Part shown: piece after piece, positions 8,867-64,000 of the stretch
Layout: each line of letters opens with the position of its first letter
Position numbering within the stretch: the first letter of the stretch is position 1
From: Heterobasidion occidentale
Lineage: Eukaryota > Basidiomycota > Agaricomycetes > Russulales > Bondarzewiaceae
Length of the DNA stretch: 64,000 nucleotides
Assembly (NCBI GenBank): GCA_039111635.1
Contig: JBCAQO010000007.1
Location: 1,302,001-1,366,000 of the forward strand
Reading direction: 5' to 3'
Notes under the pieces: generated by a model
The model's input: only the letters and a program-made list of their open reading frames with translations
Databases searched by the model: none
What the model was told of the DNA's origin: nothing
Translations under genes and position numbers: made by a program

Positions 8867-9212
8867 TGCCGTCGTCGTCGTCAAAGAGGAGATGAGTTAT
8901 TTGCCAGCCAGTTGCAACGAGCAAGGATAGCACGTTCGTCCATCTCCGGGACTTGGTACGCGACGTCATAATCGATAATCTCAAACTGCAGGCAGCAACA
9001 TCGACGATGTTTGGACTTCACAGCTGTGCTTCTCTTTATTCCAACGTATAGTCCGATCGTTTATTCATAGTTGGCTCGTTCTTTCGGAACACACTTATCG
9101 CACAATCAGGGAAGTCACGACTTTCCTTCCTCGCACCGCCGCGTCAAAGCCTGAAGAAAGTACATCGCTGTCGATTATTAGGCAGTTTCCCCACATGTAA
9201 GAGCAAGAGTCT
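8867..9212. other. Intergenic region between LeuRS and IMPase-like gene
   Basis: About 345 bp, LeuRS 3' end followed by the IMPase promoter, both on the minus strand. Nothing else was recognised. Confidence 0.4.
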
Positions 9213-49396: not shown

Positions 49397-51599
49397 ATGA
49401 GCGCGAGCCTGCCGTCTGAGAGCGCGCCTCTTCTCCCTGACGTCGAGCGCGCTAAGCCAGAGCCCACGAGGCGAATCAGAGCTGTCATTCATGCAGCGCT
49501 CTCCGCTATCTTTGTGTTGACGCTCGTGCTCGTACTCTTTTTCCTCGACGACGGGAAGAGCGGATCTTGGCTTTCCGGGCAGCTGCCGAAGGACCCAATC
49601 TTGGCGGCGCAGGAGGTGTTGAAGGTAGCGCCCGTGATCGTGCGTTCATTTATCTTTCATTTCCGAAGATCTAGGCTGTGCGATCTGAACTGATGGGAAT
49701 TGCCTACGGATAATTAGGATGGACACATAGGTGAAGTTCATGAGCCTCACTAAGACACTACTAAGACACACGCATGAACTCACGCGTTGAGGACTGTAGA
49801 TCTCCCGTGGCTTGTGCGCGCGGCATACGCGAACAATGCGACCGCAATCGACCTCGAAAGCCGGATGCCTGGCCATGTGGATATCCCGCGTCTGAAGGAG
49901 GGACACGTCGGGGGATTTTTTTGGTGAGTGCCTTGGGCATTAGCGGGCCGCTTTTGGCATTCGCTTGGAATGATAGTGCGGGACAGCACGAATGGGTGCA
50001 TTCTGTTCAACTTATGCTATGCTGGTCATTCAAAAGACGTCCTTTACGCCATGGCAAATATTTACCGAGCTTATCTCGTGAAACTAAAAGATCGCCACGC
50101 AGGAAGGCAAAAGCCTCAGTTTACGCTTTCTCGCTGTCTCTGAGAAAGCCGCACTTTTGGAAGCAGTCGGACCGCCATACTGATCTCTTACGTTAGGTCT
50201 GTCTATACATCGTGTCCGCGGGATGCGGGTTATGGTCCTGACGGAGATTTTGTGAACTCGACGTGGAGTGTTCGGTATGTGGGAATCACTGTCTGCAAGC
50301 TACCTCTTTGTGTCACGCAGCGTGCAGCTGACATTTGCATAGAGACACACTAGAACAAATAGACGTTGCACGTCTGCTCATCGACAAGTATCCCGATGTT
50401 TGTTCTTCAATAAATTATCTCTCTCCACGGCTAACCAACTCAACTAGGCATTTGAGCTCACGCTTACTGCCGCCGAGGTTAGATCCGCCATTGGGCGAGG
50501 CAAAGTCGCAAGCCTGCTTGGTGTCGAGGGGTTCGTTTCATGCGTCACGATCCTTCGTTCTGGCCAAAATCAATTTACTGCGGTTGTACCTGCACAGAGC
50601 GCACCAGCTAGGCAACTCGATCGGCGTCCTCCGACAGTATTACAGTTTGGGCGTGCGCTACATGACACTGACGCACACCTGCCATAACGCATTCGCCGAC
50701 TCCTGCGGACTGTTTGACGGCATCGAGCCGTTACATGGCGGGTTGAGGTGCGCTTCACTAAACTTTTCTGTTTGAAAATTAGATGTTCATGATATCTTTT
50801 TTCTTGTGATGTTGGCATGATAAGTACTCTCGGCCGCGCTCTTGTCCTTGAGATGAACCGCCTAGGGATGCTCGTCGACATCTCACACACTTCAGATGCC
50901 ACGGCGCTCGAAGCGATCAGTGTGTCCCGCGCGCCGGTGATGTGGAGCCATTCCTCCGCCCGCGCACTTCGCGATATCCCCCGGAATGTACCGGACAGTG
51001 TGCTGGAGAAGATCGGGGAAGAAAGCGAGGGCAAGAAGGACGGTATCATCATGGTAAGTCTCTTTCCTTTCCTTCCTCTTAATTTCTTTCGAGTGGACAT
51101 CAGATGACACGGTTTCCAGGTCAACTTTTATCCGGCCTTTGTGCATGATTCTGGAGAGGCCGACGTGAGCGTGATCGCTGACCATGTCGAGCATATCGCG
51201 AATGTGACGGGGAAGAAACAGTACGCTCATTCACAAGCTGTGGGTTTTTTCAGCACGACATTGAGTTTTTCCACACCAGCGTGGGTTTCGGAAGTGATTA
51301 TGACGGCATCAACACGGTTCCTAAAGGCCTCGAAGATGTCTCAAAGTACCCTGTACTCGTATGTTTGAGCTCATCATTCGTCATCCTCCTCTCTCAATCT
51401 GCTCCATTCGATCACAGGTTGCAGAGCTGTACCGACGCGGCTGGAACAAGCTCGAGCTCGCAGGTCTAACAGGCGGGAACGTGCTGAGAGTCTTGGAAGG
51501 CGCCGAAGGGTTAAGGAGGAGATGCGCCGCGAGGGTGTGCAGCCTGCAGCGGACCTGTACGACAAGAGACCAGATCTACCTATAAAGGAAGAATTATAG
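49397..51599 (+). CDS. Membrane dipeptidase, peptidase family M19 (one apparent frame break near 3' end)
   Basis: Zinc-dependent hydrolase of dipeptides. The start [14 protein letters not shown] is followed by a transmembrane anchor (about residues 28-50, [20 protein letters not shown]). The first zinc motif, DGHIDLP, is formed through a 13-nt microexon (49,718-49,730). Other motifs are [65 protein letters not shown] and [15 protein letters not shown]. After GAE the frame must shift by one base (GGG at 51,508-51,510) to give the usual ending [20 protein letters not shown]. Stop is at 51,597-51,599. Without the shift, the protein would end in an unrelated 21-residue tail. About nine introns are inferred. 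Confidence 0.92.
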
Positions 51600-54590: not shown

Positions 54591-56754
54591 CTACTCGGAC
54601 AATCGAATGAGTGACGCGAGGAACTGGACTCCCGCTTTGGCGCCATCGACAATGTGAACGGGCTTGAGCCCAGCTTCAGCGACGCCTTGCTGAACCAAGG
54701 CTTCCATTCCTGCCATACCTAAATCGGCGCAAGTCACACAACAACGTTCAACTGCGTCACAGAACCCCAGCAAAGCCAGAATGGCTGACCGGCGAGAGGT
54801 TGGTCTATTAGACTAGTAGCCAACGGACTTGTAGACCAATGAACTTGAGACTTATGGACACGTAGACAAAAACACGAGCTGCTTATCTCATGCCTTCTGG
54901 GCCATCGCGTCCGGCGGGTGTCGCTCCTCCGGCGGCATTGCTCCAGAGCCCCAGATACTCCCAGATGCTTAGGTCATCTAGGGACATCTGGCTAGATGTC
55001 TGTGTATGCCCAGATCTAGACAGATAAGGTGCTCTATCAATAAGCTGACTAGGAGGACATTTTTGGAAGGCATTGTTTGTAATGTCAGTGCTGGTTCAAA
55101 ATTTTTCAATACAAGAGCTGAGAAGAAAATTCCCAGTAATGTACCAGACTGTCATTGGTGCTATCTGTTGAATATCAGCTTGCTAGTGGTATTGAGATAC
55201 TTTCCTGTATCATAGCTCTCAAATGATGTATCATATGCCATCATTCTTCCATGAATAGATGCTAAAAATGCGAAAATAGATGTCACCTCACTGAGTTCAG
55301 GCATCCCAAAATTCTCTCAAGTCTCAAAAAGCTTGTTATAAGCAAAATGTTGTTGAGGAATATCATGGTCATATAGTGGAGTGGATAATTGTGGTCTTAA
55401 CATTGCTTACAACCGGTGAATGATTCAAGAGGTTCTGGGTTCAATTCCTGCACAGTGAAGATTGATTTTTGCAGTCGTCCTATTGACGACAATTATCTAA
55501 TCATTTCCATATATGGTGCATCCAGACATATCTGTCCAGACACCGGTGTGTCTGTCTAATCGGGGACTTGCTAGAGGCATCTGGGGGCCTAGGAGTGTCT
55601 GTCTAGGTTGGTACAGACACTTTCCAGTTTGCTGATGCCCTCAGCATCGGGCGATAAGTGCCATGACAAGTACTCTTTGAGGTGATTGACAAGTCGGAAT
55701 AGCTGTAAGAACGACGCGATTCTCAGCCGTTGAGTGATGTTTGGGTGGTCGACGAGAATACGAGAGAGACTTGATAGCGACATCAGTTCGTTGTCGCTGT
55801 CTGCTACGGCAATGGCGACAGATCTATGCGGTCCGGTGGTCTGTTTGATCATGCTTAGTGCGCCGGAGAAGCCGGCCAGCTCCGGCCCTTCCCACATCCC
55901 AAAGTCCCAAAGTCTACAACTTAGCGAGGTCTATAAGCACACAAGTTCATTGGCTACTAGTGCCAAAGTCCATTGTCCACTAGTCTAATAGACCAACCTC
56001 TCACCGTTCAGCCGTTCCCAGCAAAGCGAACACCCACCAGCACACCCAAGCAACAAAACATCGGCACCCGACGCTGCCGCCTTTGCGCTCGCGTCCTTCA
56101 TCGCACTCTCGACGTGCGAACGCTCACCCTCCCGCAGCTCGACGACTCCCAACCCAGTCATCACAATCCCCGCGAACCGCGCAGAGTCACCACCGAGGTG
56201 CGCACGTACCTCGACGTGGCGGTTGTAGCGATATCCCGAGCCTGTGGAGACGATGCTGAACCTGTCACCAATCAGGAGGGCGTGGGCGATGGCGGATTGG
56301 AGGATGCCGATGGTGGGTTTTGGGGTCGTCTCGCGGAGCATATGGATAAGTGGGTGGTCGGAGACTGGAGGAGGCGTTATGGGTTGAGTTATCCCCATGG
56401 GCCGTTCAGAGCGATCCGGTCCGATTCACAGGACCGTAAGAGAGTTGGCGGAGCGGTGGTGATTGCGTGGTCTCTGCTCAGCGATAAGCTATATGGAGAC
56501 GGAGAGGAGGCAGACGTACAGCAGCACACGAGAAAGCCATCGTACAGCTCGACGAGGCCTTTGGCACGGATGTCTTCGAAGCAGGCTGTCGCGGTGAGAT
56601 TCGCGGTTGTGAGATCGTTGATCGAAGGTGGCGCATGGCTCGGTGCGGTGTAGAACGTGAGCGTAGTGTCTGGTGGCGGGGACAGGGTGTCTCTGAGGCC
56701 GCTCGTGACGCTCTCGGAGGAGTTGGGGTTGATGACAAGGATGCTGTGAGGCAT
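54591..56754 (-). CDS. Asp/Glu/hydantoin racemase family protein, intron carries a transposon-like insertion
   Basis: Predicted to racemise 5-substituted hydantoins or allantoin (DCG1/HyuE-like). Exon 1 starts MPHSILVINPNSSESVTSGL and reaches ELYDGFLVCC, with the first active-site Cys. Exon 2 (about 56,375 down to 56,048) has IGILQSAIAHALLIGDRFSI, RFAGIVMTGLGVVELREGE and GADVLLLGCAG, with the second Cys. Exon 3 (ending at 54,591) gives MAGMEALVQQGVAEAGLKPV and KAGVQFLASLIRLSE. The exon 2 donor (GTGGGT) and exon 3 acceptor (GATTTAG) join in phase to GCAGMAGMEA. Their intron would be only about 70 nt without the 1.24-kb element inside it. The first gene of the hydantoin cluster; shares a 232-bp divergent promoter with the oxidase. 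Confidence 0.88.
54766..54776. repeat. Target-site duplication, left copy
   Basis: CCCAGCAAAGC, identical to 56,017-56,027 on the other side of the inserted element. An 11-bp length is in the range expected for Mutator-like elements. Confidence 0.75.
54783..54817 (+). repeat. Left terminal inverted repeat
   Basis: Reads GGCTGACCGGCGAGAGGTTG and continues to ACTAGT. Inverse of 55,979-56,013 apart from two or three positions. Confidence 0.8.
54950..55610. mobile_element. Nested tRNA-derived SINE-like insert (limits approximate)
   Basis: An AT-richer block inside the outer element. It contains an internal Pol III box A match TAGTGGAGTGG (55,374-55,384) and box B match GGTTCAATTCC (55,438-55,448), 53 bp apart. 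Imperfect CAGATGC/TCTAGACAG-type inverted repeats lie at both margins. The flanking minus-strand ORF appears interrupted by it. The limits and class are inferred. Confidence 0.45.
55589..55897 (-). pseudogene. ORF fragment inside the transposon-like element
   Basis: About 100 codons starting MWEGPELAGFSGALSMIKQT and containing RSVAIAVADSDNELMSLSSL and LFRLVNHLKEYLSWHLSPDA. Its composition looks like a real helical protein segment. The frame seems to stop where the nested insert begins, near 55,610, and could resume at about 54,955. It is not a transposase I recognise. It may be a captured host fragment. Confidence 0.35.
55979..56013 (-). repeat. Right terminal inverted repeat
   Basis: On the minus strand reads GGCTGAACGGTGAGAGGTTG and continues to ACTAGT, matching the left end. 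Confidence 0.8.
56017..56027. repeat. Target-site duplication, right copy
   Basis: CCCAGCAAAGC, identical to 54,766-54,776. Confidence 0.75.
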
Positions 56755-56986
56755 GGCGTCGAGGGAGGAGTGTGCAGCGGCGAAGACCGGCGAGCGCTCG
56801 AGTTTGCAACATGAGATCGGGGATCAGGGAGCCGGGAAACGGGGACAGATGGTGTTCGCCGCGGCCGTGGACGTTGCTTCGCGTGCACATCAAGGTCCTT
56901 TGGCTCCGATCCGCTCGCTACACCCGACGTTGGCGACTCCAAGCCATTCAAACATCTGATATCCTGACACAAGCACAATATTCTAC

Positions 56987-58284
56987 ATGGATCATGGGAA
57001 ACCCGTCCTCGTGTGTGGCTTTGGCATCATCGGCCTCACCACCGCCGTGCGCCTCCTTGAAGCCGGATTCGGCGTCGTCGCCGTTGCCGCGCACCTTCCT
57101 GGCGATCCGCTCGATCCGGCGTACGCATCGACGGCGGCGGGCGCGCATCACCTCTCGTTCGCTGCGGACGACGATCACCGTCAGCAGCGCCTTGATCGGC
57201 TCACATTCGACGTCATGGACGACGAGGAGCATCGTGAGGGCGACACCAGTGCGCTCCTCCGTCTCACGCAGAAAGAATATTATGGCACGGAGGGCGAAAA
57301 GCATATCGCCTTCTTCGAGTCTATGCCCGATGTGAGCAGCTCTCACAGGTTTTGACCCCCCTGCATGCACGCCGTCTGTGACACATCGCATGCCTTTCTT
57401 TGTGTTTCTATTTTTCTTCACGCAGTTCCGCGTAATTCCTGTAGATGAACTTCCCTCGTTCGCGAAACACGCCGTTACGTTTACCTCGCTCACGATGGAC
57501 ACCACCGCCTACCTTCACAAACTTGTCGCCCGGTTTTCATCGCTTGGCGGCCGCGTCCACAGGGCGCGTATCGATTCGCTTACCGACGCCCTGTCCCACA
57601 TTACAGAATCAGCAACAAATTCGCGCCTACAACCCCTTGCAATCGTGAACTGCACCGACCTGGGCTCACTCCACCTCGGGGATGTCAACGACACCAACGT
57701 CTATCCCGTCCGGGGCCAGGTCCTCGTCCTTGACGCGCCGTGGATCAAGGAAGGCAGAACGCTGCAGCAAGGCAAGCTCGACGGCGGCGAGGGCGGCGCA
57801 CGGACGTATATCATCCCGCGGCGAAGCGGCCAAGTCGTCATCGGTGGAACGAGGGAGGCAGATGACTGGTAAACGCACCTCTCCTTTCACCCGTCTCGTT
57901 TCACGTCCAACACGTTCGAATTTATCTTACGTCTGTTCGCATATTTATGTCATGTGGGTGAACAGGCATCCCGACCCGCGCCCCGAGACGGCACTTGATA
58001 TCAAGACTCGCGCGCTCGCGCTCTTCCCTGAGCTCTGCCCGCCGTCTGCGCGTGTGCCTGGGCGGCACCCCGAGCCGCAGGACCTCGATGCCATTGTCGT
58101 GCGCGAGGTTGTCGGGTTCCGACCTGCGCGGCGGGGCGGGCTGCGGCTTGAGCGTGGGAGCGATCTCGTCGTCAAAGGGGCGTGCATTTCGGTGCTGCAC
58201 AACGTCGGCCATGCCGGTGCGGGTTGGCAGTCTTCGTGGGGCTGCGCTGAGGAAATTGTCAGGCTCGTTCGAGGACTGGTTTGA
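56987..58284 (+). CDS. D-amino-acid oxidase family FAD enzyme
   Basis: Oxidises D-amino acids to 2-oxo acids with release of ammonia and hydrogen peroxide. The N-terminal Rossmann motif VLVCGFGIIGLTTAVRLLEA binds FAD. Further motifs are VTFTSLTMDTTAYLHKLVAR, IVNCTDLGSLHLGD, NVYPVRGQVLVLDAPW, TYIIPRRSGQVVIGGTRE and the C-terminal HNVGHAGAGWQSSWGCAEEI, which closes the FAD site. Three exons; donors lie after SMPD and EADDW. It ends VRLVRGLV, without an SKL-type peroxisomal signal, which is unusual for fungal D-amino-acid oxidases. It lies head-to-head with the racemase and tail-to-tail with the hydantoinase, so it probably processes the D-amino acids made by the cluster. Confidence 0.92.
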
Positions 58285-58640
58285 GAGTCTCTCTCATCTC
58301 GCCTCGTCTTGCCTCTTGCCTCTTCCTCCTTCACGAGGATGCATCCAGCGCCTCTGGGCCCATCAGAGGAAACGTTGTTATTTCGATTTCGATAAATTCA
58401 TTTCCGAAGTTGTACACATACACACTACGCGATATCATGTTGATCCGAAGCACGCAACTTCAAAGGTAAGTGACCACGATGCGTCCCCTATCTTACTTAG
58501 CCGTAAAAGAATTGATGACCTCTTTCTATTTATTCCGGCCGCCACTCCGACAACCACTGGTTCCTCGGGCCCCTATAGTTTAATTAATAGAACGATCCAC
58601 AACCGTCACCTTCGCTGTCCGTGAGCAACAAGGGAGGCAC
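58285..58640. other. Convergent intergenic region
   Basis: About 355 bp between the oxidase and hydantoinase 3' ends. Nothing recognised. Confidence 0.4.
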
Positions 58641-60685
58641 TTACGGCAATGAACTCTGTCCTCGCTTGAGGAACTGGCCGTACCCAGGCTCAGTGGTGAC
58701 CGTGTTCGACATGCCATCGTAGACAACCTGGCCGCGAAGAATCGTGTAGCGAGGCCAGTCTTGAACCTCGAAGCCCTCGAATGGCGTATAATCCACCGCG
58801 TGGTGTAGCTGCGGTAATGAATTACGGATATGTCAGCGCTCGCCCTTCTGTGAAGCCGAGGTGTAGAATGGAATGGAATGGAAGAAGGGGCGGGGGTGGA
58901 GCAGTACCTTCTCGTTGACAATGGTAATGGGCTTGCGTTGGTCTGCCGGCCTCCAGATGATCAGGTCAGCGTCGCTCCCCGGCTGGATCGTGCCCTCTGC
59001 AGAAACAAAAATAACACAGTCCGGGGCCAGTTCGTCAGCATACACGACACGTGGACAAGTGCAGTTCGCTTCCATCGGGCGGCTTACTTCGGGGGTATAG
59101 GCCGTCTAGGCATGAGAGAAGGAGAGGCAAGGCTAGGTCAGTGATGTTCGGGGATTGGGCGGCGACAACAGGAGCACACACAGAGCTTTGCGGCGTTGGT
59201 AGAGTTAAGCTCTACGAAGCGCTGGGGCGAGATCCGGCCCTTGAGCACACCCTCGCTCCAGAGCAGCGGCGTGCGCGTCTCGACGCCGGGAAGGCCATTC
59301 GGAATCGTGCGGAATGTTCCGCGCGGGTGCTTCCCGGGGTTCTGAATCATACCGAGCTGCATCAAACACGATCCAATGCGGAAGGCGTCAATACTCGGTT
59401 TATTCTCCTAAACGGGCTCACAAAGACGAGACGCGCGTACCTGCTTCCCCCTCTCGTCGTGGTAATTTGTCGGAGCGTGGTCGCTAGACACCACGGTGAA
59501 CGTCCCGTTTGCGAGGCCCTCCCAAACGCGCTCCTTGTCTAAGGGGTCGTCGCGCAATGGCGGAGAGCACACACATTTGGCGCCTTCGAAGCCGTCGCGC
59601 TGCATCTGCGTGCCGTCGAGCAGCGCGTAGTGGGGGCACGTCTCTGCGTACACAGGCAGCAGCCGCGTCTGTGCACGGCGAATCGTGCGCACCGCGTCCG
59701 GTGCGGAGACGTGCACGACGAGCATCGGCGTGTCCATTAGCTCTGCGAGCGCTAGCGCGCGGTTTGTTGCTTCGGCCTCGACAATGGGCGGGCGCGAGGT
59801 ACCGTGGTGCCAGGGTTCGGTCATACCCCGGGCCTCGAGGCTACGGGTCATCCATTCAATGCTGAGGGCAATGAACAGTAAGCACAAGGGCTGGAAGCAA
59901 GTCACGATGGCTGGGGATACGTACACGTCGGCGTTTTCACAGTGCACCATCGTCGTAACCCCGTACTTGCGCGAGGCGGCGAGGACATCAAGGATCTGGC
60001 TGTCATTCAGTTTGAGGGCGGCGTACGTCATGTATATCTGTGGAGCAGCTTGTTCTTAGCGCCCTCAAACTCCTATGAAGCGAGAAGATGAAATGGGGAC
60101 CTTGATTGACGTGATCCCCTCGGCGACTAGCTTTGGGAGCTCGACGTGCATCTGCTCGTGGGTCGGGTCGGTCACGATCAAATGGAACCCGTAATCACAC
60201 AGCGCATGGGCGTTGGAAAGCTCGTGGTAGTCGGCGACTGCTTGTGCCACCGATGCCCCTCTGTTCTGCACCGCGAAGGCGATGACCGTCGTCGTCCCAC
60301 CTGTACCTCAGGGGTTAGAAAAAATGAGCCCACTGGAGCAAAATATGCTTACCTGCAAGGGCGCTCCGCGTCCCGCTCGTCCAGTCGTCTGCCGACCGCG
60401 CACCAAATGATTTCGCGGCCGCTGACTGTGCGAGGTGGACATGGCTGTGCAGCATGTGCTTGAGCGATCGATATGCTTTGTGCGCATGCGAATATCATAC
60501 CTGTCAACGCCGCCCGGCGTCAAATAACCCCCCTCGGCATCGATGTCCTTACACCCTTCCTGCGCAGGTATTCCCTGCGCGAGCAAAACCACTTTTCCGT
60601 TCTTGATCCCAATGTCACACGCGACTTGGTCTGACGCGGTGACGACGATGCCGTTCCGGACGATGAGGTCGAGGTCAAAAGCCAT
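58641..60685 (-). CDS. Dihydropyrimidinase / D-hydantoinase family amidohydrolase
   Basis: Opens cyclic ureides (5-substituted hydantoins, dihydropyrimidines) to N-carbamoyl amino acids. The start MAFDLDLIVRNGIVVTASDQ leads to GGYLTPGGVD|SHVHLAQS, the metal HxH motif joined across an intron. Then come TSGTRSALAGGTTTVIAFAV, the carboxylated-Lys region GITSIK|IYMTYAALKLND, VHCENAD, PMLVVHVSAP, YAETCPHYALLDG and the catalytic Asp in VVSSDHAP. The C-terminal part reads TIQPGSDADLIIWRPADQRK, VDYTPFEGFEV and ends FLKRGQSSLP. All metal ligands appear present. About eight introns are inferred; the length (about 530 aa) is typical. It diverges from the carbamoylase across a 1.05-kb promoter region with tandem GATA sites. 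Confidence 0.93.
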
Positions 60686-61736
60686 GAATAGGTCTGCCTG
60701 AGTGGCTCAGAGGTCGGGTGACAGAAGATGGGGATGGAGACAGGTGGGAATGTGAATGCAGGCTCGATTCTTGAGCCAGAAGTTCATTTGCATTCATGGC
60801 CAAGTCCGGAACTACCAACGTTGTTCTCAGGAGGAGAGCCTGGAGGGGCGTCCTCGGCACGGGCTCGGATAAGATAAGATCGCCGACGGACGCCTGGCCT
60901 TGGCCGCGGCACATTCGCAGCTTTGTACCGTGAGTGCGAGTGAGTGCGCTGCTTGCCGTAAAAGGTCAAGCATTGTTGGATTTGGCATGCGCAGAAGACT
61001 CGAGGGTCACAGGAGGGGCGCACTGGGCTCTTGGATTGCTTCCGTTCTCTTCTTGGGGCCTGCGCTGTCAAATCGCCCGGGGCAGCATAGGCGGGCCATA
61101 CCGCCTGGTCAGTGCGTGTCAAACGCGGTATTCTGATAAATTTGTCACAAGGGCACTTCCGGGTGGGAGCTGTCAGGTGGGACATGATTTCTCCAACAAT
61201 GTACAGCAAGTTGTTGCACATCGTGGACACGATACACAGGATCGGCAGCAACGAGGGCAAGCGATTACGCACCTCCTTCCTTATAGGACTACTTACTTAC
61301 TAAATCGGGACCGTTGTCTCGCTCATCGTCGTCGTTCATGGGTACAAGTCAATTTTCAGTTTTTCAGCAGCACCGCTCGAGCTTCCTGACATCTTTACCC
61401 CTTTGAGGTGGGTTCCCTGAACAACTTCGTCCTTGTCTGTGTACTTTTGTTTACCAAGCCGCTATCTCATCCTATTGTGCTGGTCGAAGTCTTCCACGAA
61501 GTCTTCCACGACTTCCCCCTCGGAACCGTCACGATAAATTCGAAATGGGCCTACCACCACTGGAAGAGAGAGCTCCGTGCGGCCACTCAATCCTCATCCG
61601 GTGCTGAGTACCATTTGTTTGCCGCGGCTAAAGGCGACCCCGATCCAGGCTTTCCAGAATCCATAAACTTACACACTTCCCTTGTGACTGGCAATAACGC
61701 ATCCTGTTGGATTTCGCCCTCGCTTGACCCTCTGCA
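60686..61736. other. Divergent promoter region of hydantoinase and carbamoylase
   Basis: About 1.05 kb with no convincing gene. It contains overlapping GATAAG motifs at 60,868-60,878 and a TGATAA at 61,133-61,138. Confidence 0.55.
60868..60878 (+). promoter_or_regulatory. Tandem GATA-factor sites (GATAAGATAAG)
   Basis: Two overlapping GATAAG elements about 185 bp upstream of the hydantoinase ATG. Fungal AreA/Nit2-type GATA factors bind HGATAR, preferring closely spaced pairs, when preferred nitrogen sources are scarce. The role here is inferred from motif and context. Confidence 0.5.
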
Positions 61737-63026
61737 ATGACTCGCCCACTCAGAGTCGCTGCCGTCCAAGTCGGGCGCATTGATCGCGACACACCGCGTG
61801 CCGAGGTGCTCGCACGTTTGACAGCCCTCCTCGAAGAAGCTGCTTCGAAAGGCGTCCAGCTCGCTGTCTTTCCGGAGGTCACATTCACCACGTTCTTTCC
61901 TCGGTATGTTTTTACTCCGAGTGAGGAAACCGAGTTGGATGCGTTCTTTGAAGTCGAGGACCCAGAGACCGGAATTGTGGGCTCGACTAACGTGAAGGCT
62001 TTCTTCGAGCGCGCAAACGAGCTGGGAGTGGATGTCGCTGTTGGGTACGCAGAGAAGACTCCCGAAGGCACACCATACAACACCGCCAGCTACGTATCAA
62101 AGGGGAAAGTCCTTTCCAAGTACCGCAAGGTGAGCATTGTAGTAACTCTGCGCCGGGAGCAGCTGATCGATATTGAATCAAGGTACACCTTCCTGGAACG
62201 TCTGAGCCTGTTAGCGATCCAAATGCAACGAATCAGCTTGAAAAGCGCTACTTTCGTCCTGGAAATTTAGGCTTCCAAGCATTCAGAGCGCCGCACCTGA
62301 AGCACGAAACGAGGAGTCCGATTGTGGGAATGATGATTTGCAACGACCGAAGATGGGCTGAGGGGTGGAGGTGCTATGGGATGCAGGGTGCAGAAATAAT
62401 GTGCATCGGATTTGTGAGTCCTTCGTTATTGCGCAGCCTTCATACCAAAGTATGTAAAATGACGCACTCTCAGAACACCACTGCCTATGCCCCTCTGCTG
62501 TGGGGGTCTGCTGATATGACACAAGATCAATCCCGCGCGGAAGCGATAGTGAGCACCCTCTCGAATCACACTCTCTCCTTACATATAACCTTAAATAATA
62601 GTTCCACCATAAACTCGTTGTTCAATCCAACTCATACAGCAACTCAAGTTTGTTTTGATTACTCACAAGGAATGGATTCACGAGCTCACGAGTCGTCTCT
62701 TATAGCATTCTGTATCACCTCTGCACGCTGCGGCTGGGACGATGGAAAGTTTGAACTCATCACAGGCAGCATGATTGTTGATCCAAATGGCCACATCGTC
62801 GCGGAGAACAAGACCGACGGAGACGAGGTGGTTGTTGCCTATATTGATCTGGATGCTTGCGTGTGAGTCTGAAAGCACTCTCAAGGCGATTTGTTGAATA
62901 TCCTGACCCATACATCTCAGGCAAGGAAAGACGAAGATGTTCTGCTTCGAGAAGCACCGGCGCCCGGAACATTATGGCCTTATATCGGAAAGGGCTGGTG
63001 TTGTTGAGCCTGAAGAAGTTGTTTGA
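61737..63026 (+). CDS. N-carbamoyl-D-amino-acid hydrolase (nitrilase superfamily)
   Basis: Releases D-amino acids, CO2 and ammonia from N-carbamoyl-D-amino acids. The start is MTRPLRVAAVQVGRIDRDTP. The Glu-Lys-Cys triad is visible: Glu in VFPEVTFTTFFPR, Lys in YRK|VHLPGTSEPVSDPNATNQ and Cys in GMMICNDRRWAEGWRC. The CNDRRW motif and the VHLPG...NQLEKRYF stretch are specific to D-carbamoylases and differ from beta-ureidopropionases. The C-terminus has ITSARCGWDDGKFELITGS, then QGKTKMFCFEKHRRPEHYGL, and ends VVEPEEVV. Most introns resolve, but around 62,550-62,670 the exon after SRAEAI is one base out of phase with the FDYSQGMDSRAHES exon. It is followed by a regulator gene on the same strand. 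Confidence 0.92.
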
Positions 63027-63317
63027 TTTTATGGTGTGTATGAATATGTCGTATGTGAGAACATCTTGTGTAGGGAGTGTGTGCATCGTGAGACGCCCTT
63101 ACTGGACGCGACGCGATTGAATCACGTGGTGTTGTTTCGTCATGAGTCAGGCGATTGCAGGCCTCGTCCGCGCGGTGGTCGTCGGTTCCCCACGATTATT
63201 CATAGACGTGGATGTTTTGTGCTTCTCGTCGCTGCTCGCTCTTTCATATCTACGGCCAGTCCCACACGAATAGCCTCGAGAACGCGAAGCCCCAAGGCGA
63301 GACGCGTAGCGAAGAGC

Positions 63318-64000
63318 ATGCCAGAAGGATCGTCTATTCCAGGGCCAAGTTCAACCGCGGGCTTGCTTCCATCCACTCTGTCAAGGCCGTTTCGATCGAG
63401 GAAGAATCGGCCTTGCGACGCATGCGTCAGTGTATTTTCACATTCTTTTTCAATCATTCGACTGAGGTGTGAGCTTTGAATGGTCTGTGCCAGCGTAAAG
63501 CCAAGACGCGCTGTGCCATTCCCGAAGTTGGTCCACCCTGTGTGGAGTGTCAGTGAGCGAGCCTTTTATGCTGCACGCGTCCGACAAATGAATCATTGCC
63601 ACTGTCAATCAAAGGCAGACGCGTAAATCATGCACGTTTGACGAGCTGCCGCCAGAGCGCAAGAAACCCACCAAGCGCGCATTGCCGCCTAATCAAGACG
63701 GTGCCCACATTGGGAGCATCAGTTCTCCTGGAAGCGAGACTGGTACACAAGGGTATGCAGCAGAAAAAAGGCCGCGAAGGGCGAGTATGACTGCCAGCGC
63801 AAGTACAAGCCCCAGTGTCGACTTCACTGGAATGCACGCGCTTATCGAGGCGGCCACCCAACAAGAGCGTCAGCAAGCGGCTTCGATATCAGGTCCTACA
63901 TCTCTAGATCTGTCTACCACGGACACTCTCGAGCCCCATGTGCTCACTGTTCTCCTGACGGACGATCTCTTGCCCATTGGGAATCGGCAGACGGGATCTG
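63318..64000 (+). CDS. Zn(II)2Cys6 transcription factor (C-terminus beyond window)
   Basis: Fungal binuclear zinc-cluster regulator. The start MPEGSSIPGPSSTAGLLPST leads to RKNRPCDAC. Two introns (63,426-63,493 and 63,553-63,614) interrupt the cluster. The spliced spacing is CX2C X6 C X8 C X2 C X6 C (CDAC, RKAKTRC, AIPEVGPPCVEC, QQTRKSC), a perfect zinc-cluster pattern. A basic stretch RKKPTKRALPP and a Ser/Thr-rich region follow, consistent with a linker. The first intron has the less common donor GTCAGT. Only about 190 codons are in the window. Its position next to the carbamoylase suggests that it is the pathway-specific activator; this is inference. Confidence 0.85.

Follow-up and report, generated by a model that had tools for sequence, protein, structure and literature searches.

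Here we analyse a window of 64,000 nucleotides (the whole stretch of DNA under study, C7:1,302,001-1,366,000) from the wood-rotting fungus Heterobasidion occidentale, whose genome comprises 45.05 Mb in 159 contigs, and focus on a cluster of genes for hydantoin-type enzymes at its right-hand end. Five contiguous genes occupy positions 54591-64000, namely, from left to right, a racemase (-), a flavin adenine dinucleotide (FAD) oxidase (+), a hydantoinase (-), a D-carbamoylase (+) and a Zn2Cys6 factor (+), just where an initial annotation of this DNA had placed them. Removal of GT-AG introns leaves four uninterrupted, full-length enzymes of 229, 368, 486 and 335 amino acids (aa), respectively, whose family matches far exceed chance. 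The features are as follows:

54591..56754, minus strand: Asp/Glu/hydantoin-type racemase, 229 aa; exons 56754-56520, 56364-56038, 54718-54591
56755..56986, no strand: upstream region common to the divergent racemase and oxidase genes, 232 bp between start codons
56987..58284, plus strand: D-aspartate-oxidase-type FAD oxidase, 368 aa; exons 56987-57331, 57426-57868, 57966-58284
58641..60685, minus strand: dihydropyrimidinase/D-hydantoinase-family amidohydrolase, 486 aa, 9 exons; exons 1-5 60685-60501, 60444-60353, 60300-60101, 60037-59925, 59861-59441; exons 6-9 59356-59182, 59105-59088, 58996-58908, 58808-58641
61737..63026, plus strand: N-carbamoyl-D-amino-acid hydrolase (nitrilase superfamily), 335 aa, 6 exons; 61737-62129, 62183-62413, 62474-62548, 62602-62647, 62706-62862, 62921-63026
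63318..64000, plus strand: Zn(II)2Cys6 transcription factor, 5' part; first exon 63318-63425 (by eye), N-terminal part modelled

The hydantoinase and carbamoylase genes are also divergent, with 1,051 bp separating them.

The best solved relative of the carbamoylase is the D-carbamoylase 1fo6 (E 5e-67), and the 11 best of 28 distinct solved sequences are all D-carbamoylases, scoring 222-230 bits, with the next at 52 bits. Entries named only beta-ureidopropionase reach at most 27 bits, and the nitrilase 3ivz, which is also so named, reaches 49 bits. When aligned to 1fo6, the signatures FPE, KYRKVHLPG and ICNDRRW supply the Glu-Lys-Cys triad in its CNDRRW context, and the triad columns are invariant across 12 aligned fungal carbamoylases. 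The 335-aa database protein P0001 matches over its full length with 97% identity, which supports the splice model. In copy-number searches of the genome, carried out exon by exon in six frames, the window gene is the only carbamoylase copy found.

The hydantoinase matches the D-hydantoinase model TIGR02033 with 498 bits (cut-off 393), whereas it reaches at most 225 bits with the allantoinase model, far under its cut-off, and at most 221 bits with the ErtD hydantoin-5-propionate model (cut-off 650). Alignment with 2fty and 1k1d reveals HVH, the Lys of GITSIK, the His of MVHCEN, the His of VHVSAP and the Asp of SSDHAPT, which we take to be the metal ligands HxH, carbamylated Lys, His, His and Asp. 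No other close gene of this type turned up in the genome; one distant relative (37%) lies at C1:1,691,939, and its best model is allantoinase (TIGR03178), to which one open frame scores 254 bits, short of the cut-off of 358.

Among solved proteins, the hydantoinase matches best the dihydropyrimidinase 2fty with 446 bits, presumably PYD2 of the yeast Lachancea kluyveri, bacterial D-hydantoinases reaching at most 366 bits (1k1d). This similarity would suit a role in uracil or thymine breakdown, with the hydantoinase acting as a dihydropyrimidinase, the carbamoylase as a beta-ureidopropionase, and the other genes being adjacent by chance, which we regard as very improbable. The carbamoylase scores given above favor D-carbamoylases over beta-ureidopropionases, and, unlike in the PYD2 route, the partner enzymes of reductive pyrimidine breakdown were not found in the Heterobasidion genome. 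No dihydropyrimidine dehydrogenase was found there, because the genome's single Fer4_20 match lies in a frame that reads, by eye, as glutamate synthase, and the M20-type carbamoylase/beta-alanine synthase gave 0 candidates in a search whose sensitivity for intron-split fungal copies is unchecked. The URC4/DUF1688 uracil family, present elsewhere in the genome on two contigs, argues in the same direction.

The two URC4/DUF1688 loci (C10:31013-31949 and C17:31333-32940) gave identical scores for two exons, which suggests either a recent duplication or separately assembled alleles.

The racemase matches PF01177 with 154 bits (cut-off 31) and is the sole PF01177 gene found in the genome. It is 96% identical over its full length to the 229-aa H. 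irregulare racemase P0121, and its splice model is supported by this database match. The cysteines of LVCCFSDHP and LGCAGM keep both catalytic positions in the alignment with 5lfd and 3qvj; these positions are Cys79/Cys184 in PMC12661438. The family active-site residues reported by the initial annotation are thus present in the alignments of racemase, hydantoinase and carbamoylase. Of the solved relatives, 5lfd is named allantoin racemase, and 3qvj/3qvk were deposited as putative hydantoin racemase and are termed allantoin racemase in PMC12661438. The relatives fall in the allantoin-hydantoin racemase subfamily, of which some members act on cyclic ureides and others on peptide derivatives (PMC12661438).

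These names, together with four homologues called DCG1 or dcg1 among the matches listed (best 120) and the description of yeast DCG1 as an allantoin racemase (PMC3646786), would fit an allantoin route in which the hydantoinase serves as allantoinase and the racemase, like yeast DCG1, as allantoin racemase. The Saccharomyces DAL cluster with DCG1 is a fungal nitrogen cluster that contains a racemase and an allantoin permease (PMC3646786). However, none of the genes identified in the Heterobasidion cluster encodes allantoinase, allantoicase or ureidoglycolate hydrolase, and D-carbamoylase and D-aspartate oxidase (DDO), for which the allantoin route has no role, do not appear in the available part of the DAL cluster description (PMC3646786). 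The hydantoinase scores 225 bits to allantoinase against 498 bits to D-hydantoinase, and the distant relative at C1:1,691,939 provides a separate allantoinase-like gene, so that the allantoin route appears highly unlikely.

For the oxidase, the best PDB match is the D-aspartate oxidase 9vpf with 328 bits, the next being a D-amino-acid oxidase (DAAO) with 127 bits. In a tree of 44 oxidases, the window oxidase falls in a 31-row group (100/100) that includes the characterised DDO of Vanrija (Cryptococcus) humicola, to which it is 49% identical, and 13 D-amino-acid-oxidase-like rows fall apart from this group. The protein called a D-amino-acid oxidase in the initial annotation therefore belongs to the DDO clade instead of the general type. 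The Vanrija DDO is described as highly specific for D-aspartate and as made only when D-aspartate is present; it was studied as a D-Asp-induced gene, with no such cluster named in the available portions of these reports (PMC5854778, PMC8708985). The main text of the Vanrija RNA-seq paper (PMC10006432) does not contain the terms hydantoin, carbamoyl or racemase. For C. gattii CgDao1, of which the clade row P0276 is probably the orthologue, the reported value with D-Asp is 0.916, and the values for ten other D-amino acids are 0.040-0.062 (PMC4489021). Distant relatives of the window oxidase lie on C12 and C13 (best exons 41% and 38%) and are nearer the other oxidase group, and a weak relative at C1:1,827,231 is unplaceable (67 vs 61 bits); these assignments of the genome's oxidase relatives to the two groups were made by list rank, not by tree.

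Linkage in other fungi was assessed in a table compiled by hand from protein searches with the carbamoylase, racemase and oxidase, using the best 120 rows each of lists with 6815, 636 and 332 matches. Equal length of the contig served as the proxy for the same contig, the contig shown being the longest of a 90% protein cluster. The table comprises 26 species besides the one studied here, each appearing in two lists or in all three. Left out were species in one list only, those whose only oxidase row lies in the range of the other group (such as Panaeolus, Infundibulicybe, several Mycena, Coprinopsis marcescibilis and Calocera, and also Jaapia argillacea, with racemase and other-range oxidase on contigs of equal length and no place in the tree), as well as Rhodotorula paludigena and the carbamoylase of Sporobolomyces pararoseus JCM5350 (different strains). 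Two further species, Rhodotorula toruloides and Schizophyllum commune, were scored as unlinked even though their rows combine several strains.

At least two of the three genes share a contig of equal length in 22 of the 26 species, and their gene numbers are within 6 of each other in 14, where the chance for a random gene pair would be about 0.001-0.002 in a genome of 6,000-12,000 genes. All three lie on one contig, judged by length, in 7 of the 10 species for which all three are listed. In Rhodosporidiobolus ruineniae, racemase, carbamoylase and oxidase bear the consecutive numbers 3084/3085/3086, and in R. poonsookiae oxidase, carbamoylase and racemase are 2954/2955/2956, with nothing between them in either species. 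Coniferiporia weirii has the racemase at 8959, the carbamoylase at 8964 and the oxidase at 8965, the trio lies together on a 37.7-kb contig in Pseudohyphozyma bogoriensis, and three Kwoniella species show a carbamoylase-oxidase distance of three gene numbers. These examples belong to Agaricomycetes, Tremellomycetes and Pucciniomycotina. As a control, a second oxidase copy lies on another contig (by length) in all five tree species that have such a copy besides a linked DDO (Coniferiporia, Phellopilus, Phellinidium, Kwoniella dejecticola and R. poonsookiae); four of these second copies belong to the other group, and that of K. dejecticola, P0298, to the DDO clade. Conserved linkage, which the initial annotation had named as a check of its proposal, is thus found for racemase, carbamoylase and oxidase. 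The conserved linkage with racemase and DDO also speaks against uracil or thymine breakdown, and on all the above counts pyrimidine and allantoin breakdown were both rejected as unlikely.

The linked Pucciniomycotina oxidases P0267, P0268 and P0277 end in AKL, which looks to us like a peroxisomal signal, and the Heterobasidion oxidase ends in GLV.

The genes form a genuine cluster that is conserved in part and most likely handles hydantoins or N-carbamoyl compounds, yielding an acidic D-amino acid, and to the catabolic reading, in which hydantoins or N-carbamoyl amino acids are broken down with an acidic D-amino acid as end product, we assign a probability of about 0.5. We infer the individual reactions in this fungus, their sequence, the substrates, uptake and regulation as follows. 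An NCS1 permease encoded just beyond the window would import a 5-substituted hydantoin, whose enantiomers would be interconverted by the two-cysteine racemase. The hydantoinase would open the D-hydantoin to the N-carbamoyl-D-amino acid, from which the D-carbamoylase would free the D-amino acid, releasing CO2 and ammonia. Finally, the DDO-type oxidase would convert the D-amino acid to the 2-oxo acid, ammonia and H2O2, and the Zn2Cys6 protein would be the likely local regulator. Should the oxidase share the preference of DDO, D-aspartate (or D-glutamate) would be the amino acid formed, and the route would start from 5-carboxymethylhydantoin or N-carbamoyl-aspartate. These two are the likeliest substrates, with D-aspartate and then oxaloacetate being formed. 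N-carbamoyl-aspartate is the pyrimidine precursor, and 5-carboxymethylhydantoin is its five-ring form; Lieberman and Kornberg reportedly named the latter together with ureidosuccinic acid in a paper title of 1954. A more far-reaching proposal, namely an ancient basidiomycete route that recovers nitrogen and carbon from 5-carboxymethylhydantoin and N-carbamoyl-aspartate via D-aspartate, with its own hydantoin permease and regulator, is possible, and we offer it tentatively.

The putative regulator and permease lie in part or entirely to the right of the window. The Zn2Cys6 gene runs past the window to about C7:1,367,990 (about L003:2990, by eye). Its product matches PF00172 with 21.8 bits (cut-off 21) and Fungal_trans with 19.5 bits, under the cut-off of 23, and the spliced sequence contains the Cys motif CX2CX6CX8CX2CX6C. 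Beyond it lie:

L003:3414-4045, beyond the window, after the Zn2Cys6 factor: GNAT acetyltransferase
L003:7375-4795 (C7:1,369,795-1,372,375), minus strand, beyond the window, third gene past the carbamoylase: NCS1 permease, 557 aa, 16 exons

The permease matches PF02133, the uracil/allantoin/hydantoin group, with 343 bits; counting this gene, five NCS1 loci in the genome reach E 0.001 or better. Its sole solved relatives are entries of the hydantoin permease Mhp1 (61 bits), which is, however, so distant that the substrate is unreadable from the likeness. Among the Mhp1 residues that we take to have functional roles (Trp117, Gln121, Trp220, Asn314 and Asn318), Trp117, Gln121, Asn314 and Asn318 are kept in the permease, as counted by hand in the alignment.

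Several observations weigh against the catabolic hydantoin reading. The substrates of NCS1 permeases are diverse, and the neighbouring permease does not retain Mhp1 Trp220. The hydantoinase falls just under the PRK13404 cut-off (624 vs 647) and is nearer to the yeast dihydropyrimidinase than to the bacterial D-hydantoinases. A promoter word comparison found no word of at least 8 bases common to all three intergenic regions. Armillaria nabsnona, Meredithblackwellia eburnea, Schizophyllum commune and Rhodotorula toruloides, i.e., 4 of the 26 species in the linkage table, show no contig of equal length, and the comparison outside Heterobasidion covers racemase, carbamoylase and oxidase only. As for the oxidase, the clade-typical Arg of TRQ (25 of 31 DDO-clade rows) is replaced, the motif reading TLQ, and human Arg216 aligns with Gln (counted by hand), so that the enzyme may favor acidic substrates less strongly. 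The position of human Arg237 is occupied by Arg (GGTR), as in 28 of 31 clade rows and 2 of the 13 others; however, both Vanrija rows, including the characterised DDO, have Met there, so that this Arg is no proof (the roles of Arg216 and Arg237 in human DDO are given in PMC8260693). The Cryptococcus DAO genes, moreover, overlap functionally on D-Asp (PMC4489021). We therefore read the oxidase family as pointing to D-aspartate, with the substrate-side residues not settling specificity.

The Leu that the window oxidase carries where most clade rows have Arg would be in keeping with a broad version of the pathway, in which many 5-substituted D-hydantoins are degraded and the oxidase also takes neutral D-amino acids. 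Bacterial D-carbamoylases and D-hydantoinases, which we take to be broad enzymes, would be in keeping with it as well. We consider this version unlikely, because the oxidase falls in the DDO clade and scores 328 bits to DDO against 127 to DAAO, and because the C12 and C13 oxidases, being nearer the other group, could serve neutral D-amino acids. The proposal of the initial annotation that the hydantoinase route is extended by the oxidase is hence supported as a cluster, although its broad D-amino-acid reading is probably too general.

As linkage elsewhere is shown for the trio only, and the trio is consecutive with nothing between in R. ruineniae and R. poonsookiae, the conserved unit could also consist of these three genes alone, with N-carbamoyl-aspartate or a different N-carbamoyl compound as substrate, and the hydantoinase would then be a local neighbour in Heterobasidion. 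This seems rather doubtful to us, given that the Heterobasidion hydantoinase lies between the oxidase and the carbamoylase, with no second close copy found in the genome. The racemase subfamily, moreover, includes enzymes for cyclic ureides, though also for peptide derivatives, as cited above.

Another acidic product to be weighed is D-glutamate, formed from hydantoin-5-propionate in histidine or ergothioneine breakdown. Mushrooms make ergothioneine. According to PMC8708985, DDO deaminates D-amino acids of the acidic kind. However, the hydantoinase scores 221 bits to ErtD (cut-off 650) against 498 to D-hydantoinase (cut-off 393), CgDao1 gave only 0.049 with D-Glu (PMC4489021), and none of the neighbours was recognised as an ergothioneine or histidine gene, though no search was aimed at such genes. 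We thus regard D-glutamate as an improbable product, and D-aspartate stays the preferred one.

Bacterial hyu loci combine the same three enzyme functions, by family, i.e., hydantoin racemase, D-hydantoinase and D-carbamoylase. A scan of bacterial genomes yielded at least 575 relatives of the fungal carbamoylases, of which the best 80 loci, at 41-52% identity, were kept. A racemase relative (about 26-35%) is present in 38 of these 80 loci and an amidohydrolase relative in 31, and a DDO relative in none, within the fetched flanks. D-hydantoinase-like relatives (41-48%) accompany more distant carbamoylases (42-46%), in 12 of the 16 loci L118-L133. Unlike the bacterial loci, the Heterobasidion cluster has a DDO-type oxidase, a fungal NCS1 permease, a Zn2Cys6 factor and introns.

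In the carbamoylase tree, 21 fungal rows stand on one side of a 100/100 branch and the 20 chosen bacterial rows on the opposite side, with which the suggestion of the initial annotation that any transfer would be old is compatible. The basidiomycete carbamoylases as a single group were rejected (approximately unbiased test, p-AU 0.007). The racemase is 72% identical to that of Mycena crocata and 64% to that of Bondarzewia, among the matches listed, and Bondarzewia is, as we take it, in the same order as Heterobasidion. Transfer of the cluster from Agaricales into Heterobasidion, to which these raw identities seemed to point, was considered and rejected, as the trees do not reject a grouping with other Russulales (p-AU 0.32 for the racemase with Bondarzewia; p-AU 0.17 for the carbamoylase with Stereum).

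In the best carbamoylase tree, Neolentinus stands outside the other 12 basidiomycete rows, and Pucciniomycotina stand beside Agaricales, against the species tree. These odd placements may reflect transfer or hidden copies within fungi.

No description of such a fungal cluster was found in the open literature, judged by titles and the starts of abstracts, with subscription papers mostly outside this search. Among the hits is a Hydantoinase_B protein, presumably of another family than the window hydantoinase. It is mentioned in a Heterobasidion virus paper (PMC11494978), and the single mention of hydantoin in the available part of a caffeine transcriptome paper concerns an oxoprolinase domain (PMC12735256). 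If the proposed pathway is correct, the hydantoinase route, known from bacteria, would extend to a eukaryotic gene cluster. The conserved link of DDO to a D-carbamoylase and a hydantoin-type racemase suggests a source of the D-aspartate that some fungi oxidise by means of a dedicated enzyme, and fungal D-aspartate oxidases would then gain a natural metabolic source of their substrate. The cluster would also supply fungal enzymes for the production of D-amino acids.

Turning to the structure of the racemase gene, its second intron contains a mobile element:

54777..56019, no strand, within racemase intron 2: hAT-like non-autonomous element, 1,243 bp, 8-bp target duplication AGCAAAGC

The ends of the element are 52-nucleotide terminal inverted repeats that are 88% complementary, and an 8-bp target duplication is typical of hAT elements. 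One end matches at least 9 further places in the genome. Of five other copies examined, three (L043, L045 and L047) show an 8-bp duplication beside like ends, and in the other two it was not seen within the stretch fetched. The element lengthens intron 2 to 1,319 bp, as compared with 68 bp if it is removed, and the claim of the initial annotation that all introns are typical therefore does not extend to this one. A broken racemase was considered and rejected, given that the 1.2-kb insertion sits inside the intron and both intron 2 splice sites are kept. The gene looks intact because the spliced sequence reads LGCAGMAGM across the exon junction and the 229-aa product aligns with P0121 over its full length.

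The left neighbour of the cluster is a complex-I LYR-type gene at about 53.2-53.8 kb of the window. Further left lies part of an M19 membrane dipeptidase gene (50793-51368, plus strand), which may or may not belong to the cluster; enzymes of the M19 family are able to release D-residues. Elsewhere in the window, the G+C content is 0.69-0.72 at 18-20 kb and 24-28 kb and 0.46-0.62 in the remainder, and the high-G+C stretches contain long Ser/Pro/Ala-rich open frames, one of which has, by eye, a kinase-like end.

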